Assembly (NCBI RefSeq): GCF_001653795.1
Contig: NZ_CP011514.1
Coordinates: 2,643,715-2,707,714 of the forward strand
DNA from: Mitsuaria sp. 7
GTDB lineage: Bacteria; Pseudomonadota; Gammaproteobacteria; Burkholderiales; Burkholderiaceae_C
DNA length: 64,000 nucleotides
Direction: 5' to 3'
Made by a program: the position numbers and the translations under genes. Each line of letters begins with the position of its first letter. The stretch's first letter is position 1. The notes beneath the pieces were generated by a model. That model did no database searches and was not told the DNA's origin. It was given only the letters and a program-made list of their open reading frames with translations. This document shows positions 2,367 to 10,303 of this stretch, piece after piece.

Positions 2367-2774
2367 TCAGCCCGCTGGCATCGCCGTCGGATCCATCCAG
2401 AGGGCGGCCCACAGATGACCGTCGGGATCGGCGAGGTCGCGGGTGTACATGAAGCCGTGGTCCTCCATCGGATTCACATCGGCCTGCCCGCCATTGGCGG
2501 CGGCAGCCTCGTTCATCGCGTCGACGGCGGCGCGACTCTCCAGGGCCAGCGACAGCATCAGCCCGCAGGAACCGGCCGGCGGGAACGGCCGCTGGGTGAA
2601 GGTCCGCCACTTGGCGTGCGTGACCAGCATGACCTGGATCGCGTCGCTCCAGACCATGGCGGCGCCGTCTTCACCGCTGAACTGCGGGTTCTGGCCGAAG
2701 CCCAGGGCCTTGTAGAAGGCGATCGAGGCGCCGAGGTCGCTGACCGGAAGGCTGATGAAGAGGCTCTTGGGCAT
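2367..2774 (-). CDS. VOC (glyoxalase/bleomycin-resistance) family protein
   Basis: This 135-residue protein has the beta-alpha-beta-beta-beta vicinal-oxygen-chelate fold. It opens with MPKSLFISLPVSDLGASIAFY and ends with the characteristic DPDGHLWAALWMDP strand. The start has a good ribosome site (GGAGCG about 6 bases upstream). Members of this subgroup are often annotated as extradiol-dioxygenase-like or glyoxalase-like without a known substrate, and no substrate can be assigned here. It is probably co-transcribed with the unknown gene that follows at 2358. Confidence 0.85.
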   Translation of the reverse strand: MPKSLFISLPVSDLGASIAFYKALGFGQNPQFSGEDGAAMVWSDAIQVMLVTHAKWRTFTQRPFPPAGSCGLMLSLALESRAAVDAMNEAAAANGGQADVNPMEDHGFMYTRDLADPDGHLWAALWMDPTAMPAG

Positions 2775-2902
2775 GGTTCGCTCCGTGGGCAGGTTGAGTC
2801 GGGTCCCGCAGTGCGCAAGACGCCTTCTTCATCACGACGATCGAGCAGCCTCAGAATCGACACCGCCGCGCGGATACCTTGGAGGCCGTTGTCCCCCGTC
2901 AG

Positions 2903-5032
2903 CTACTTCGCCAACAGATCGATCGCGTCGTCGCGGCTGCCGGCTCTCAATCGGGTCACATGCAGCGCGACCAGCTTGTCATCGGGACGCTGGGCCGCCA
3001 GGACTTCGAATGCCGCGAGCGCGGCATCGTCGCCGCGTCGCATCCATTCGAAGGCGCTCGCGTAATCGACATCCGCTTCGACGGATTGCCCGTCCGCCGC
3101 CTGGGCCTCGTGGACCATCAGGTAGGTCGAACGTCCGGCCAGTCGCAAGCGTCCCACCGGCCGCGTCACGGCGCCTGGGCAGCCCCGCAGCGTGTCCTCC
3201 GAGACGCACAGCGAGGTCCCCAGGAACTTGTTGGCGCCTTCCAGCCGCGCCGCCGTGTTCACCGGATCGCCCAAGGCGCGGTAGTCGAAGAGCGTCGCCC
3301 CGCCGAAGTTGCCCACGGTCACTTCGCCGGTGTGCACGCCGATGCGCGTGTCGCAGAACGCGATCCCCTGCCGCTGCAACGCGTCGACATGCTCCCGCGC
3401 GAACGCCTGCATCTCCAGCGCGCAACGCAGCGCGCGCGCTTCGTGGTCGGCCTGCGGCACGGGCGCGGAGAACATGATCGCCACCGCGTCCCCCACGATC
3501 CGGTCCAGCGTGCCGTCATGCTTGAACGCGATGGCGATCATCCGGTCGAGGTAGGTGTTCAGCACCGACACCGCAACCGCCGGATCCATCGTTTCCATCC
3601 TCGCCGTGAAGCCTTGCAGGTCCGTGAACACGAAGCTGCATCGCTGGCGACGCCCACCCAGTTCAAGCGCCTGCGGGTTCGCGACCAGGTAGTCGATCAG
3701 GTTGGGCGACACGTAGCGCGAGAACGTCGTCTGCATCCAGCGTTGACGTCGCTCCGCCCACCGGTGACGCATCAGCATGGTCGGGGCGAAGACCAGCGCC
3801 ATCGCCAGGACGGGTGCACCCGGATCCAGGAGCAGCCGCCCGAAGCGGAAGGACGTCCACGCCGCCAGTCCGATGGCCCCCACGAGACCCAGGAAAAGGA
3901 GACTCGACCGGCCCGGACGCGCCCTCATCGCGACGATCCCCACCGCGATGCAGCCGATCAACGCGACGATCGCCTCCGTCGCCGGTACCCATCCGGGTCT
4001 GCGCAGTTGCTGGCCCGACACGATCTGCTCCAGCGCCTGCGCATGGACTTCGACACCCGGGATGACGCCGCCCAGGGGGCTGAAACGCAGGTCGAGCAGG
4101 CCTTGCGCCGAGGTGCCGATCAGGACGATCCTGCCCTTCAACGACGCCGGCGGGACTCGCCCCTCCAACACCTGCCATGCCGGCAGGTAGCGCTCGGCCT
4201 GCGGGCGCGCGAAATGCATCCACAGGGCGCCGGTCTGATCGGTGTCGATCCGATGCGTGCCGATGCGCAGGTCGATGACTCCGCCCGCGTCCGCGGCGGC
4301 GTGGACGACATAGGCGTCCGCGCCGGCGGCCAGGCGCAGCGCCTCGGCGGTGAGCGAAGGCACCGGCCGCCCTTGCAGGCTGAACAGGAGCGGCACGCGG
4401 CGCACGACGCCGTCCACGTCCGGCATGAAGGTCATCGCGCCCTGCCCCGCCGCGGCCAGCTGCAGGTCGCGGAGATTGGACACGCTGCTCGAGAACGCCG
4501 GCACCGAACGGGTCGGCTCGCCGCCGACGGCGATGAAGCCGGCCTTGAACAGCAAGGGCCCGCCGGCGGCGTCGGCCGCGTCGCCCCCCTGCCGCGGTCC
4601 GGTCAGCGCGACGCCGAGTGCGACCCGCCCGCGTCGCAGCGCCTGCGCCAGCGTCTGGTCTGGATCGTCGGAAGCACGGCCCCCCGCATCCGCGCGCGTC
4701 TGCCCTTCCGGTTCGGGAAACATGATGTCCAGCGAGACGGACGCGGGCTCGAGCTGCCGCGTGGCATCCAGCAGGCGCGCCACCTGGGCCCGGGACCACG
4801 GCCATTGCCCGATGCGTCGCAGGCTTTCCTCGTCGATGTCGATGATCCGCACGGGAGGCGCCAGGTAGGGCCTCGGATGCCAGCGCTGGAACTGGTCGAA
4901 CACCGCGTTGCGCGCCACGCGCAAAGGCACGGGATCGTGCACGACCAACGCCATCGCCGCCAGCATCGCGACCAGCGGCACCAGCCAGGCCAGGCGCGGC
5001 AGGCGTGGCAGACGGGCGCCGATCTCAGCCAT
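2903..5032 (-). CDS. CHASE2-domain class III adenylate/guanylate cyclase
   Basis: This is a 709-residue membrane receptor cyclase. It has an N-terminal membrane anchor (about 15-32), then a periplasmic CHASE2 sensor (about 40-340, starting with the typical VFDQFQRWHPRP...IIDIDEESL block). Three membrane helices follow (about 350-430), and a cytoplasmic class III cyclase domain (about 470-640). Metal-binding aspartates are visible in FVFTDLQGFT and RIVGDAVAIMF. The base-specificity pair reads R (in TLDRIVGD, where adenylate cyclases usually carry K) and D (in RALGDPVN), so ATP is the likelier substrate but this is not certain. It is the last gene of the four-gene operon and overlaps the HD-GYP gene by eight bases. 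Confidence 0.92.
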   Translation of the reverse strand: MAEIGARLPRLPRLAWLVPLVAMLAAMALVVHDPVPLRVARNAVFDQFQRWHPRPYLAPPVRIIDIDEESLRRIGQWPWSRAQVARLLDATRQLEPASVSLDIMFPEPEGQTRADAGGRASDDPDQTLAQALRRGRVALGVALTGPRQGGDAADAAGGPLLFKAGFIAVGGEPTRSVPAFSSSVSNLRDLQLAAAGQGAMTFMPDVDGVVRRVPLLFSLQGRPVPSLTAEALRLAAGADAYVVHAAADAGGVIDLRIGTHRIDTDQTGALWMHFARPQAERYLPAWQVLEGRVPPASLKGRIVLIGTSAQGLLDLRFSPLGGVIPGVEVHAQALEQIVSGQQLRRPGWVPATEAIVALIGCIAVGIVAMRARPGRSSLLFLGLVGAIGLAAWTSFRFGRLLLDPGAPVLAMALVFAPTMLMRHRWAERRQRWMQTTFSRYVSPNLIDYLVANPQALELGGRRQRCSFVFTDLQGFTARMETMDPAVAVSVLNTYLDRMIAIAFKHDGTLDRIVGDAVAIMFSAPVPQADHEARALRCALEMQAFAREHVDALQRQGIAFCDTRIGVHTGEVTVGNFGGATLFDYRALGDPVNTAARLEGANKFLGTSLCVSEDTLRGCPGAVTRPVGRLRLAGRSTYLMVHEAQAADGQSVEADVDYASAFEWMRRGDDAALAAFEVLAAQRPDDKLVALHVTRLRAGSRDDAIDLLAK

Positions 5033-6788
5033 TGGCGCCGGGGGCCTGGTAGGCGCTCGCGTCCTCGACGTCGATCTGCGACGGATCCAGGTGCTTGCGC
5101 GCGAAGTCGAGATAGACGCCCGAGCTCAGGAACAGGTTGAAGATGTCCGGATCGACGTGCGGTCCCGCCATCCGCTGCAGCACCGCCAGGGCTTCCGACA
5201 GTTTCTTGGGCTTCTTGTACGGACGGTCCGACGCCGTCAGCGCTTCGAAGATGTCGGCCACCGCCATGATGCGGCTCGGCACGGACAGCCGGTCCGGACC
5301 GAGCCGGCGCGGATAGCCCTTCCCGTCCATGCGCTCGTGATGCGTGCCGGCGTATTCCGGCACGCGGCGCAGATGCTTGGGGAACGGCATCTGTTCGAGC
5401 ATGGTGACCGTGTGCACCATGTGCTCGTTGATCTTGTAGCGCTCCTCCTGCGTCAGCGTCCCGCTGCGCACGCCGAGGTTGTGCAGCTCGCCGCGGTTGT
5501 AGAGATGCTCCGGCACGTCCATCCTGAAGCCGTACGACGGATCCGGCCGGTCTTCCGCCGGCCGCGGCACGATGTCGCGCAGGCGGTCCGACAGCAGCGG
5601 TTCGCTGCAGGGCAGCTCGGGGTCGGCCTCGCCGCTGCGGCTCGCCAGCTCGGCCGCCGACAAGCCCAGACGGTCGTCGAAGTATCTCGTCCAACGGCGG
5701 GCGCCGACGCGATGCAGTCGATCGACCGCCTCATCGTCCATCGCCTCCGTGCCGACGTTGCACTTGGCCACGAAGGCGAAGTCGGCGTCGAGCTGCGCCA
5801 GCGCGGACTCATGCGCGGCCTGCGCGTCGTCGCTCCAGGCGCCGGCCAGGCGCGCCTGCAGCGAGGCGATCTCCAGGTCGCGCCGCATCACCTCGAAGCG
5901 CATCCGGACCTCGTGGATGCGGTTGTGGATGGTCTCCAGCTTGGTGGCCTTGTCGATGACGTATTCGGGCGTCGTCACCTTGCCGCAATCGTGCAGCCAG
6001 GCGCCGATGCGGAACTCCTCCCACTCTTCCTCGGACCGGAAGGCGAAGTGCTTGAGCGGGCCCTCGGTCGCCTCGCTCGCGGCGCGCGCGAGCATGATCG
6101 CCAGCTCCGGCACGCGCTCGCAATGGCGGCCGGTGTACGGGCTCTTCGCATCGATGGCATTGGCGAGCACGCGGATCAGGCTGCTCATCAAGTCCTTGTG
6201 CGACTCCACCAGCGACAGGTTGTCCAGCGCCACCGCGGCCTGCGCCGCGATCGCCTCCACCAGGCCCACCGTTTCGGGATCGAAGGGCACGATGGCCCCG
6301 CTCGCCGGGTCCAGCGCGTTCATGAACTGCAGCACCCCGATCGGCGCGCCGCCGCGGGGCGCGATCGGGACCGTCAGCATGGACACGGTTCGATACCCCG
6401 TCGCGACGTCGAAGGCGCGCGTGCCGGTCAGGTCGAAGCGGCTCTCCGCATACACGTCGTCGATCAGCACGGCGCGGTTGTGCAGCGCCGTGTAGACGGA
6501 GACGAAGTTCTCGTTGGGCCGGCCGGTCTGCTCGTGGTACAGCGGGATCTGCTGGGAGGGCAAGGGGTCGCTGCGGGTGCGGAGCTCGAAGCACAGGGTC
6601 TGCTGCTCCGTCACCATGTACATGGTCGCGCCGTCGCAATGCAGCAGCCGGCGGCCTTCTCCGAGCAGCTGCTGCAGCAGCGCCTGACGGTCCCGGCTCA
6701 TGGACATCATGATGCAGGTCTCGATCAGGCCCTTGAGACGGACCGCGTCGGCGGAGCGCTCGGGAGCGCGCGATTCCGGGGACGTCAT
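5025..6788 (-). CDS. GAF - HD-GYP domain protein (probable c-di-GMP phosphodiesterase)
   Basis: This 587-residue soluble protein has a GAF domain (about 18-190) and an HD-GYP output domain (about 205-570). The metal-site motifs are intact: HDCGK at 266-270 and HHERMDGKGYP near 490. HD-GYP proteins hydrolyse c-di-GMP to pGpG/GMP. About 170 extra residues, charged and helical, separate the HDCGK block from the LGVRSGTLTQEE block, whereas a typical HD-GYP has only a short connector there. The gene lies four bases downstream of the FecR gene and overlaps the cyclase gene, so c-di-GMP turnover and cyclic nucleotide synthesis are made together. Confidence 0.92.
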   Translation of the reverse strand: MTSPESRAPERSADAVRLKGLIETCIMMSMSRDRQALLQQLLGEGRRLLHCDGATMYMVTEQQTLCFELRTRSDPLPSQQIPLYHEQTGRPNENFVSVYTALHNRAVLIDDVYAESRFDLTGTRAFDVATGYRTVSMLTVPIAPRGGAPIGVLQFMNALDPASGAIVPFDPETVGLVEAIAAQAAVALDNLSLVESHKDLMSSLIRVLANAIDAKSPYTGRHCERVPELAIMLARAASEATEGPLKHFAFRSEEEWEEFRIGAWLHDCGKVTTPEYVIDKATKLETIHNRIHEVRMRFEVMRRDLEIASLQARLAGAWSDDAQAAHESALAQLDADFAFVAKCNVGTEAMDDEAVDRLHRVGARRWTRYFDDRLGLSAAELASRSGEADPELPCSEPLLSDRLRDIVPRPAEDRPDPSYGFRMDVPEHLYNRGELHNLGVRSGTLTQEERYKINEHMVHTVTMLEQMPFPKHLRRVPEYAGTHHERMDGKGYPRRLGPDRLSVPSRIMAVADIFEALTASDRPYKKPKKLSEALAVLQRMAGPHVDPDIFNLFLSSGVYLDFARKHLDPSQIDVEDASAYQAPGANG

Positions 6789-6792
6789 CGGT

Positions 6793-8640
6793 TCAACGCT
6801 TGAAGACGATCACGCCCGACACGTTGCCGATGCGGCTGTCGAAACCGTAGGCCACCCCGGCCCGCGTGCCCGCGGCGCCGGCGATCTGTCCGATCACCGA
6901 GACGTTGTTGCCCAGGCTGCCGGTACATCCACCCAGACATCCGGTGCCGGTGCTGGAGATCAGCGAGACCCCCGAGAAGCCGGACGCCGAAGTCTGCGTC
7001 GCCACGCCCACCAGCGAGAAGGTCTGGCCGGCCACGGGCACCGTGAGCGAATAGCTGGCCCTCCCGCCGAGTTGCAGCTGCAGCGAGGCGTTGAACGAGC
7101 CGGTGGCGCCGTTCACGGCGCCGGTGGCGACCAGCTTGCCGTCGGACTGCACGGTCGGCGCAGTGGACGCCATCGACGAGAACAGGCCGCTCACGGCGCC
7201 GACCGGCGTCTCGGCGATGGCGAAGTAGTGCAGCGTCGACAGGTTGCCGTTGCCAACGCCCTTGCCGTTGCCGGTGCCCTTGACCTTGCTCTGACCGTCG
7301 GTCCAACGGCCCCAGCCGATGACACCGTCGGAGCCGACGTCGATCGGCTTGCCTTTCTCGAGCATCGATTTGCCGGTCGTCGGGTTGTCCGCATCCACCA
7401 GACCGCCCGTCGGGTTGAAGTGCGCCTTGCCCTGGGTCAGTCCGGACGCGACTTCGCCCTTGTCGGTGCTCCACACCAGACCGAGCGTGACGTTGCCGTC
7501 CGGCAGCGGGATCGGACCGGGACCCGGTCCCGTTGGCGGTCCGGGCGGCGCCGGCGGCGCCGGAGGAGCCGGCGGCCCAGATGGGCCCGGTGCCGGTGCC
7601 GGTGAAGGTGAAGGTGAAGGTGAAGGTGAAGGTGAAGGTGAAGGTGCCGGTGTTGGTGCAGGTGCAGGTGCAGGTGCAGGTGCAGGTGCAGGTGCAGGCG
7701 ATGGCGATGGCGAGGCTGCGGGTGGAGTCACCACCACGATCGGCGCGTTCTGGCCACCGGCGCCGGCGCCCGAAGGGGTTCCGACGACCGTGGCGCCCGG
7801 GAGTGGAGGCAGCGCATCGTCGTCCGCAGGCGCGCCGCCGGCCGTCCCCGGGGCGGCGACGGCCGGCGGCGTGAGGGCCGCCACCAGGAACTGCGACACC
7901 TGCTCGCCCGACGTTGGTGAGTGGCGGGTCGCGGGGACTTCCGCGGCGGGCGTCGCCGTCTCGGCCGAAGCGATCGCGACCGCGACCGCGTTGGCAGGCT
8001 GCAGGAGCACCAGCGGCTTGACGCTGACCGCCGGCTTCACGGCCCGGTTGGGCGTCAGGGCCATGAAGCCTTTGGGCACATCGACGCAACCCCCGTCGTT
8101 GCAGACCGCCACACGGCCGCCGATGACGCCCACCTCCAAGCCGCCCTCGCTGCCGACGGCCGCGGTGTACTCCGTCCCCCGGATGCCGATCGTGCCGGAG
8201 GGCGTGTCCAGCCGGTACTCCTCCGCGCGCGGATGGCCGATGCTTCCGCTGATCGTGCGCAGCGCGCCGCGGATCAGGCTCATGAAACCGCGCTCCTCGG
8301 CACCCGGCGCGTCCGCCACGCGGTAATCGTCCAGTCGCAGCGTCGTCTGCTCGCTGAGCGCCATCAGCGCGCCGTCGACCATGCGCAACTGCACGCGTCC
8401 TTTTCCGGTCTGCACCGTTTCGCCGGACTCGATCTGTGCACCGGTCTTGAGCTCGCGCACCTCGCCCTTGGCGGACACCGCGCGCACCTCGCCGCTCGAG
8501 AACAGCACCGTCGCAGACGGGCTCGACCAGGCCACGCCAGACACCGCGCACAGCGCGGCCATCGCCACCAGATGGCGCAGGCCGGGCGAGGAGGCGGCGC
8601 CGACGCGACGGTCGGAAGAACGTCGGAAGTCGAGGGTCAT
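6793..8640 (-). CDS. Secreted FecR-domain protein with Pro-rich repeat linker and C-terminal beta domain
   Basis: This is a 615-residue exported protein. A signal peptide (about 1-39) leads to a FecR domain (about 45-185, with SGEVRAVS, TLRLDDYRV and LDTPSGTIGIRGTEY). A low-complexity segment (about 200-300) and an (S/A)P-dipeptide linker (about 300-355) follow, encoded by a hexanucleotide repeat. The last 240 residues are glycine/serine-rich alternating beta strands ending in GVIVFKR. That C-terminal part resembles the small barrel of TbpB-type Slam substrates by eye, which is an inference. No anti-sigma membrane helix or sigma factor gene is present, so this is not a classic FecIR pair. The start overlaps the preceding TPR/barrel gene by four bases (ATGA). 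Confidence 0.85.
   Translation of the reverse strand: MTLDFRRSSDRRVGAASSPGLRHLVAMAALCAVSGVAWSSPSATVLFSSGEVRAVSAKGEVRELKTGAQIESGETVQTGKGRVQLRMVDGALMALSEQTTLRLDDYRVADAPGAEERGFMSLIRGALRTISGSIGHPRAEEYRLDTPSGTIGIRGTEYTAAVGSEGGLEVGVIGGRVAVCNDGGCVDVPKGFMALTPNRAVKPAVSVKPLVLLQPANAVAVAIASAETATPAAEVPATRHSPTSGEQVSQFLVAALTPPAVAAPGTAGGAPADDDALPPLPGATVVGTPSGAGAGGQNAPIVVVTPPAASPSPSPAPAPAPAPAPAPAPTPAPSPSPSPSPSPSPSPAPAPGPSGPPAPPAPPAPPGPPTGPGPGPIPLPDGNVTLGLVWSTDKGEVASGLTQGKAHFNPTGGLVDADNPTTGKSMLEKGKPIDVGSDGVIGWGRWTDGQSKVKGTGNGKGVGNGNLSTLHYFAIAETPVGAVSGLFSSMASTAPTVQSDGKLVATGAVNGATGSFNASLQLQLGGRASYSLTVPVAGQTFSLVGVATQTSASGFSGVSLISSTGTGCLGGCTGSLGNNVSVIGQIAGAAGTRAGVAYGFDSRIGNVSGVIVFKR
7589..7714. repeat. Hexanucleotide repeat tract coding the (SP/AP)n linker
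   Basis: On the + strand the tract holds seven consecutive GGTGAA units (7601-7642), one GGTGCC, one GGTGTT and seven GGTGCA units (7655-7696), flanked by GGTGCC and GGCGAT variants. Each 6-bp unit encodes one Ser-Pro or Ala-Pro dipeptide of the minus-strand FecR protein. Gain or loss of units keeps the frame, so the linker length can vary without inactivating the gene. Confidence 0.95.
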
Positions 8641-10001
8641 GGGAAGCTCCTGTGGAGGGTGAGCTGGAACGTGCTGCGCACGTAGTCGTACAGCACGACG
8701 TTGGACGCAGCGCGCGTGTAGCGCAGCTGGCCGGTGAATTCCCAGCGATCGCCCACGCGGTAGCGCAGGCCGGCCGAGGCCTCCTGCTGCCGGTCACGCC
8801 GGACGGTGTCGAAGAAGGCTTCCTCGCCGCCGTAGCGACGATCTTCGAACTGCGCTTCACCGACGAGGAACAGCTCGCCGGTCAGACGACGTTCGACGCC
8901 GACGCGAGCGCCGCGCCCGCGATGTCCGAAGGACGCGAAGGCGGGATCGGTGCGCTCGCGCGCGAGATAGACGCTGCCATAGACCAGCGTCGCGCCGCCG
9001 CCGAAGCTGCGCGCCAGGCCCAGACCCAGCACCGACCGGTCGTTGTCGCGGCCCGCGTCTTCGGGAAAGTCCTGGCGCGACCACTGACCGAAAAGGCTGC
9101 CCTGAAGCTGCTCATTGAACTGCGATTGCCATTGCGCGGTGATGCCGCCGACGTCGCGGTAACGCCGCGATCCGACCCGCGCGGACCCGGCCTGCAACGC
9201 GAGGGTCTGACTCTGCGAACCGGCCGTGTGCCGCACGCCGGCCGTCGCGTCCGCCAGCACCGTGTCCAGATCATGGACGTCGCGATTCGCGGTATGGCGC
9301 AGATTGGCGCCGCCGAGGAGGCTCCAGCCGTCCGACAGCGGCAGTTCCGCGAACGCCCCGGCCGCGGCGTTGCCGACGAGCGCGCCCTGGCGGCGGCTTT
9401 CCGGCGTGGTCTGGAAAAGGATGCCGCCGAATGCGGGGATCGCGAACTCGCCCTGGTTGGTCGCGCTGTTGACGTTGCTGTCGTAGCCGACACCGAGTTC
9501 CACATAGCCGGACACACGCGTCCCGCGCTGCGGGACGACCCGGTCGACGACGCCCAGCACGCGATCGATGGCGGCGGCGGCCTCCGGCGGCGCGTCGCCG
9601 GCCCGTGCGCGGGTCAGTTGCTCGCGCGCCCGTTGGACATCGCCGGCGGCCAGATAGGCCCGGCCCAGTTCGGCGCGCGCGAGCCTGTCGTCCGGACGTG
9701 CGTCGACGGCACGCTCCAACGCGAAGATGGCGCGCGTCACATGGCCGGCGTCCAGCGCGGCGATACCGAGGAGATAGTCGAATGCGGGATCGCCGGCCCG
9801 GGTGGGTTCCGCCGCGACCAGCAGGTCGTACGCGGCCGCGGCGTCATGCCGCGCCAGCAGGGACGACGCTCGATCAAGCAACGCATCCTGGGCCAGGAGG
9901 CCAGTGCTGCAGCAGGCGACGGCTGCGGCCAACGCAAGATGCCGTAGACCGGTCTTTCCGCTACGGGCGAAGAATCTGTTTTGGCGGGAACTCAATGTCA
10001 C
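8637..10001 (-). CDS. TPR plus outer-membrane beta-barrel protein (Slam/DUF560-like)
   Basis: This 454-residue exported protein has a signal peptide (about 1-38), TPR-type helical repeats (about 40-155: DYLLGIAALDAGHVTRAIFALERA, then ARAELGRAYLAAGDVQRARE), and a C-terminal 290-residue region of alternating beta strands ending close to an aromatic residue (HRSFP), as in outer-membrane barrels. A periplasmic TPR domain fused to a barrel is the architecture of surface lipoprotein assembly modifiers, although it could be another TPR-porin. The annotated start is GTG; a TTG two codons later is possible. It is the first gene of the operon and overlaps the FecR gene by four bases. Confidence 0.85.
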   Translation of the reverse strand: MTLSSRQNRFFARSGKTGLRHLALAAAVACCSTGLLAQDALLDRASSLLARHDAAAAYDLLVAAEPTRAGDPAFDYLLGIAALDAGHVTRAIFALERAVDARPDDRLARAELGRAYLAAGDVQRAREQLTRARAGDAPPEAAAAIDRVLGVVDRVVPQRGTRVSGYVELGVGYDSNVNSATNQGEFAIPAFGGILFQTTPESRRQGALVGNAAAGAFAELPLSDGWSLLGGANLRHTANRDVHDLDTVLADATAGVRHTAGSQSQTLALQAGSARVGSRRYRDVGGITAQWQSQFNEQLQGSLFGQWSRQDFPEDAGRDNDRSVLGLGLARSFGGGATLVYGSVYLARERTDPAFASFGHRGRGARVGVERRLTGELFLVGEAQFEDRRYGGEEAFFDTVRRDRQQEASAGLRYRVGDRWEFTGQLRYTRAASNVVLYDYVRSTFQLTLHRSFP

Positions 10002-10018
10002 CTCGTTTTTATGGTGAC
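9997..10018 (-). promoter_or_regulatory. Hairpin overlapping the start of the TPR/barrel gene
   Basis: The arms GTCACC (9997-10002) and GGTGAC (10013-10018) are a perfect 6-bp inverted repeat around a 10-base A/T-rich loop. On the minus strand the downstream arm contains GAGGTG, the only Shine-Dalgarno-like sequence, together with the GTG start. In RNA the hairpin would bury the translation start of the whole operon. It could also be a protein operator. Confidence 0.4.
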
Positions 10019-10303
10019 TGCGCGAACGCAGCCCAACGGAGCATCATCGGCGTCGCGTCGATCGATTGAAGGCAGGGCGCGGACACCGCTGTGATTTCCT
10101 GCGCGCGGGGAACAAGACCGGCAAAACACGAAACGCGAATGTTCGCGATGCAGTCACGCTAAGTTCGGTGTCGCACGTTGCAGACACCGCCGTACGCTGT
10201 CCTACAGAGAGCTGCGATGTGCGGCTGCAAGGCCAATCGTCCTGAGGGTCAGGCCTTGACGGCGCTTGGAGTGCCGATGGCGCGGCGTCATAGAATCCCG
10301 CGC
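10002..10303. other. Intergenic region between divergent operons
   Basis: About 300 bases separate the second-messenger operon (minus) from the copper cluster (plus). It holds a perfect inverted repeat CGCGAA-TG-TTCGCG at 10134-10147, a candidate operator between the divergent promoters. A TAGAAT box at 10291-10296 sits just upstream of the DUF2946 start. No ORF here looks coding. Confidence 0.5.
10291..10296 (+). promoter_or_regulatory. TAGAAT -10 element close to the DUF2946 start
   Basis: TAGAAT ends seven bases before the ATG at 10304, so transcription would start at or almost at the start codon and give a leaderless or near-leaderless mRNA. The candidate -35 (TTGGAG at 10266-10271, spacer 19) is weak. 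The same arrangement occurs ahead of lapA. Confidence 0.4.

Follow-up and report, generated by a model that had tools for sequence, protein, structure and literature searches.

In type 11 secretion systems (T11SS), an outer-membrane protein of the SlipAM family (DUF560) carries cargo of the TbpB, fHbp or haemophilin type across the outer membrane. Here we analyze a four-gene block in a stretch of 64,000 nucleotides from the soil bacterium Mitsuaria sp. 7 (contig NZ_CP011514.1, positions 2,643,715 to 2,707,714; hereafter the window), which encodes a SlipAM protein, a FecR-domain protein, a protein with GAF and HD-GYP domains and a CHASE2-domain nucleotide cyclase. As in a T11SS, the SlipAM gene adjoins one encoding a protein with a cargo-like barrel fold at its C-terminus. 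However, ahead of the barrel the predicted cargo has a FecR domain followed by a long proline-rich linker, the SlipAM protein lies in a separate branch, and the operon also holds the cyclase and HD-GYP genes. The main text of two T11SS surveys does not mention FecR, and we found no paper joining FecR with SlipAM, DUF560 or T11SS among open-access articles, taken without their supplements.

Comparable gene neighborhoods have been described. A published cluster of Campylobacterota encodes a CHASE2 adenylate cyclase, a phosphodiesterase, a FecR-domain outer-membrane protein and a TPR protein (PMC9239204). The window brings together genes of the same four kinds, a likeness that concerns gene content alone. 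In contrast to the window, the phosphodiesterase is said to act on cyclic AMP (cAMP), and the portion of that paper available to us gives no secretion identity or barrel. Because a cluster of this kind is in print, the four-gene combination is not unprecedented. In Burkholderia, the BiofilmReg operon encodes a LysM-FecR protein with a CHASE2 histidine kinase and a response regulator (PMC5192318). There too, an exported FecR-domain protein adjoins a CHASE2 receptor, but the available portion of the paper describes no SlipAM, barrel, cyclase or HD-GYP protein. The window proteins have no Pfam match to LysM and include a cyclase in place of the kinase, differing in this from the BiofilmReg operon. 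The same source states that the recognition target of CHASE2 was not known as of 2016. For Sinorhizobium meliloti, according to the part of the report available, the cAMP regulator Clr has targets that include one protein with a FecR domain and another with TPRs, and cAMP was raised there by means of a cyclase from which the CHASE2 domain had been removed (PMC5498481). We therefore regard the parts of the block as known, and as new their combination in this form, together with a predicted new type of T11SS cargo.

The probable exporter and its putative cargo

The four genes (Table 1) are joined by a 4-base ATGA overlap (8637-8640), a 4-base gap (6789-6792) and an 8-base overlap (5025-5032). 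These are exactly the junctions from which an initial annotation of the window had concluded that they form one operon, and its domain calls are likewise borne out by Pfam matches. Within 2600-10300, a scan for sigma-70 promoters found no promoter-like site, and there were 2 terminator-like sites versus 2.5 in shuffled sequences; such scans are weak evidence.

By its profile match, the first gene product is a protein of the SlipAM (DUF560, type 11 secretion) family: PF04575 matches with E 7.5e-20 and 72.1 bits, against a curated cut-off of 22. A TPR_19 match (E 3e-8, residues 82-144) lies ahead of the SlipAM match (residues 167-453), so that a TPR region precedes the barrel. The earlier description as an exporter-like outer-membrane barrel thus holds, although it missed the SlipAM identity. 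We infer that passage of the cargo across the outer membrane would depend on this protein. Polysaccharide exporters (BcsC, EpsL, PEP-CTERM) were considered and rejected, as their NCBIfam matches are far below cut-off whereas SlipAM is above its own. The gene probably starts at TTG 9993-9995 instead of the GTG in the list of open reading frames (ORFs): the TTG and the GAGG ahead of it are both kept in 5 of 5 relatives compared, and the GTG is absent from three of them (L005, L006, L017).

The second gene encodes a FecR domain (PF04773, E 7.6e-11) behind an N-terminus that reads as a signal peptide without a lipobox; no anti-sigma domain and no other Pfam family matches at E<=1. In this the protein differs from the FecR/PupR cell-surface signaling regulators, and a role as an anti-sigma factor was rejected on these grounds. 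Its C-terminal domain gave a confident AlphaFold2 model (pLDDT 91.7) that is predicted to be nearest to TbpB, NHBA, fHbp and haemophilin, which are folds of the T11SS cargo type; these top neighbors reach TM scores of at most 0.51, and one unrelated barrel is among the matches. A secreted FecR-domain protein had been annotated, which agrees with the domain and the N-terminus but overlooked this cargo-like fold. Pfam TbpB_B_D gave weak matches (E<=0.1) in 2 of 50 C-terminal regions, the best with E 1.3e-4, and a profile of the barrel matched no sequence in the PDB.

Part of the linker is encoded by a hexamer repeat (7589-7698), which is a likely site of length variation: the linker has 190 residues in the window, 301 in L003 and 176 in L004. 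A tie between long linkers and CHASE2 was considered but is not claimed. Linkers have 166-301 residues in the window's clade and mostly 47-152 elsewhere, but the clade is a single lineage. Two longer linkers outside it (356 and 461 residues) might contain an overlooked barrel, and the comparison covered only a minority of the other cyclase-linked FecR proteins.

Around 74 residues of the FecR region align with 5ix9 in both sequence and fold, a likeness to the retention module of LapA and MpAFP. However, the retention family NF033682 of NCBIfam scores 33 bits, below its cut-off of 50, the four genes include no RTX adhesin or type 1 secretion component, and the exporter belongs to another family. 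In the open-access literature we found no paper joining FecR with LapA and the retention module. A LapG-like protease domain (PF06035) is encoded elsewhere in the genome (G000:C1:42309-42674). Structure comparison shows that the FecR fold resembles signaling and anchoring domains, whose sites of action are the periplasm or the outer membrane.

The SlipAM-FecR pair across Burkholderiales

Counting the window's own, 9 of 250 Burkholderiales genomes have the C-terminal barrel domain, and in all eight other loci a SlipAM gene stands directly upstream of the FecR-barrel gene. A phylum-wide search also gave 9 of 398 genomes, again with the window's own; one match (L156) looks false. Two of the eight loci have three barrels in tandem. 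Among SlipAM-linked FecR proteins, those of L043 and L044 have three tandem barrels of the cargo type, and that of L099 has four. Another such protein, in L101, has 1512 residues and by eye seems to hold several barrels. Elsewhere, L157 encodes a lipoprotein-like protein (6629-7504) that matches the barrel profile, with no FecR or SlipAM match in that stretch.

SlipAM itself is more widespread, with 87 matches in 60 of the 250 genomes. We read 66 matches with wide flanks (60 plus 6 that were also chosen by barrel); the window accounts for one further match, and another 20, mostly the strongest, were left unread. Pair counts cover 68 loci minus the 8 chosen by barrel, i.e., 60 loci chosen by SlipAM alone. 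A FecR gene follows on the same strand within 400 bases downstream of SlipAM in 40 of these 60, and within 3 kb in 45; the floor would be 40 of 80 if none of the 20 unread, mostly stronger matches had FecR. A SlipAM ORF exceeds 60 bits on our own profile in 51 of the 60; however, FecR-linked members served to build this profile, which makes 40 of 60 the safer count. The barrel profile matches 17 of these 40 FecR partners, and by eye many of the others have a similar motif at their end; those of L090 and L110 seem to have no barrel. In eight short loci with strong SlipAM matches (L052-L059), no FecR gene was found within flanks of about 1.5 kb.

In a tree of 84 SlipAM rows, of which 21 were picked via the barrel, the cyclase or the window itself, 14 rows without FecR split at 100/99 support from the other 70, 62 of which have FecR. 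The 14 include two identical pairs and five rows seen with short flanks only; the strongest PF04575 matches fall among them and are taken for classical Slam proteins. Two rows labeled as lacking FecR (L152, L153) have three barrel matches behind an N-terminal region that does not match the FecR profile. We consider it highly probable that SlipAM and FecR proteins function together as an export pair.

Joining of the pair to CHASE2 cyclases

The recurrent unit is the SlipAM-FecR pair, to which some lineages have added CHASE2 and HD-GYP genes. The nearest relatives are in Roseateles noduli and other Sphaerotilaceae. A search of genome contigs with the window's cyclase gave 28 loci, six of which (L003, L004, L005, L006, L017, L028; Roseateles/Pelomonas type) carry the complete block in the window's gene order; L020 has all four with the last two swapped. 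The gene-neighborhood search suggested by the initial annotation thus recovers the block in Roseateles, Pelomonas and, rearranged, Pseudorhodoferax records. Within the genus the block is patchy, as only 5 of 16 genomes, counting the window's own, have the barrel domain.

Most pairs stand without a CHASE2 gene. A CHASE2 cyclase is near the pair in 5 of the 60 SlipAM-chosen loci (L088, L091, L098, L103, L104), not counting weak cyclase matches of 34-42 bits in L082, L084 and L110. Gene orders in the five differ from the window's, and their cyclases have the usual Lys/Thr selecting residues, as opposed to Arg/Arg in the window's clade. Given these two types of cyclase, the pair has probably joined a CHASE2 cyclase at least twice. 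A strong HD-GYP match is found in 11 of the 28 cyclase loci versus 1 of the 60 SlipAM-chosen loci (L103); the HD-GYP gene thus accompanies the cyclase more than the pair. In L104, a gene for a GAF-MshEN-type II secretion ATPase (7224-9635) adjoins the pair and the cyclase.

FecR genes are also associated with the cyclase, in 26 of the 28 loci: 7 are of the long kind with SlipAM and 19 of a short, FecR-only kind. In the two loci without FecR, the sequence stops 1.5 and 2.2 kb beyond the cyclase. A FecR-domain frame also stands just upstream of the one other CHASE2 gene in the genome (L158, G000:C1:3476777-3478398). The initial annotation was right about a FecR protein beside CHASE2. CHASE2 occurs in at least 173 of 250 Burkholderiales genomes, and is therefore common without SlipAM.

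A Paracoccus plasmid carries TPR-barrel, FecR and CHASE2-cyclase genes in the window's order, without HD-GYP. Its TPR-barrel gene scores 37 bits on our SlipAM profile and is not called SlipAM by Pfam, and its FecR protein has matches to TbpB_B_D and FHBP_C, both below cut-off. On an Ensifer plasmid (L159), small genes for TPR and FecR proteins run in line with an NHLP bacteriocin exporter and diverge from a relative of the window's cyclase.

The signaling enzymes and neighboring genes

The third gene product matches GAF (PF01590, E 4.5e-13) and HD_5 (PF13487, E 3.4e-45). Its HDxGK-, HHE- and GYP-type motifs are intact by eye, and by domain and motifs it is predicted to be a phosphodiesterase of the cyclic di-GMP (c-di-GMP) type. 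The fourth matches CHASE2 (PF05226, E 8.4e-60) and Guanylate_cyc (PF00211, E 9.3e-15), with 6fht as the closest solved cyclase by sequence (E 2e-29). The metal-binding Asp is present, with motifs FTD and GD. Class III adenylate cyclases usually have Lys and Thr/Asp at the adenine-selecting positions. This pattern is not seen here: the window's cyclase and all 28 relatives have Arg at both positions that we take to be base-selecting (LDRIVGD, YRALGD). With such unusual substrate-selecting residues, cAMP is not assured as the product.

Table 1. Coordinates, in the window, of the four genes and their domains
Feature	Position	Strand	Basis or remark
SlipAM / DUF560 (type 11 secretion) outer-membrane protein, N-terminal TPRs	8637..10001	-	PF04575; start more likely TTG 9995
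FecR - proline-rich linker - T11SS-cargo-like barrel protein, 615 aa	6793..8640	-	PF04773, structure models
FecR N-terminal region, 178 aa	7999..8532	-	
Linker, 190 aa, 29% Pro, 22% Ala	7498..8067	-	
C-terminal all-beta domain, TbpB C-lobe-like fold, predicted T11SS cargo barrel	6796..7500	-	
GAF + HD-GYP protein	5025..6788	-	PF01590, PF13487
CHASE2 - class III nucleotide cyclase	2903..5032	-	PF05226, PF00211
CHASE2 sensory domain, residues 26-366	3935..4957	-	Pfam
Catalytic domain of the cyclase, with the metal Asp and with Arg/Arg at the substrate-selecting positions	3227..3646	-	

Downstream of the block, a glyoxalase-like gene (2774..2367) was considered as a fifth member and rejected, as only the window's own copy matched among the frames collected; the available part of PMC12282271 does, however, report glyoxalase genes in the vicinity of cluster 3 T11SS. 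Positions 36-1802 hold frames that, by translation, resemble an ABC transporter permease and ATPase, followed by a cyanate lyase (Pfam).

Possible mechanism and alternatives

We lean towards interpreting the whole block as a surface-export pair joined to a two-enzyme signaling output. SlipAM would carry the C-terminal barrel of the FecR protein across the outer membrane, as T11SS do with TbpB- or haemophilin-type barrels, and the FecR domain and the long proline-rich linker would stay at or inside the outer membrane. The FecR domain would report the state of the barrel or exporter to CHASE2, altering cyclase output, and the HD-GYP enzyme may give a second, c-di-GMP-type output or feedback. The main argument for FecR as the link between surface and CHASE2 is its double association, with CHASE2 and with SlipAM. 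That the FecR end is coupled to CHASE2, or controls it, is a suggestion we make only tentatively. The initial annotation's complete sensing system is, in this light, plausible as an outside-to-inside module, with the pair as the recurrent unit.

By sequence, the link to known cargo is weak, and no window protein matches Pfam TbpB_B_D. Profiles detected no CHASE2 cyclase or HD-GYP gene in the eight barrel-chosen loci, some of which lie on short contigs; their Pfam-nameable flanking genes are mostly housekeeping, with TPR glycosyltransferases in three loci. These loci, and the lone lipoprotein of L157 with its barrel-profile match and no FecR match, would fit full export of the FecR-barrel protein by SlipAM. 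It would then be a binding protein for nutrients or adhesion, either on the surface or released, with the cyclase and HD-GYP protein as merely co-expressed regulators that make no physical contact with it. We think this somewhat unlikely: a FecR gene is kept beside the cyclase clade even without SlipAM and barrel, in 19 of 28 loci, and the FecR fold matches domains of signaling and anchoring.

Alternatively, the FecR end might be a periplasmic retention plug, where the barrel exits via SlipAM, the N-terminal domain halts in the pore, and second messengers set retention or release. The anchoring domain of LapA and MpAFP is thought to stop in the exporter pore in this way. However, the FecR region has only about 70 residues in common with it, no LapG-type site was seen by eye (with no search made), and the LapG-like gene is far off and may serve another adhesin; we regard such a plug as unlikely. 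Less probable still is that SlipAM is an outer-membrane signaling partner instead of an exporter, with its periplasmic TPRs binding the FecR domain in the manner of FecA-type transducers with FecR, and with the barrel as a periplasmic ligand binder. The C-terminal fold is nearest to T11SS cargo, the barrel occurs in one to four tandem copies, and its gene adjoins that of a T11SS-family protein, all of which argue for export.

Within our preferred interpretation of an export pair joined to signaling enzymes, an extreme form is that a single protein reaches from the outside to the cyclase, with the barrel at the surface via SlipAM, the proline-rich part as a rod through outer membrane and periplasm, and the FecR end anchored like a plug and docked on CHASE2. 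We view this form as doubtful. If it were true, CHASE2 receptors would have their missing ligand in FecR domains, and T11SS would serve signaling as well as secretion.

Implications

If the general interpretation is correct, the cargo of a large branch of SlipAM proteins is headed by FecR, and the main text of the two T11SS surveys names no such type. There would also be a concrete candidate for the input of CHASE2 receptors, and the block suggests a route leading from the surface into the cell.
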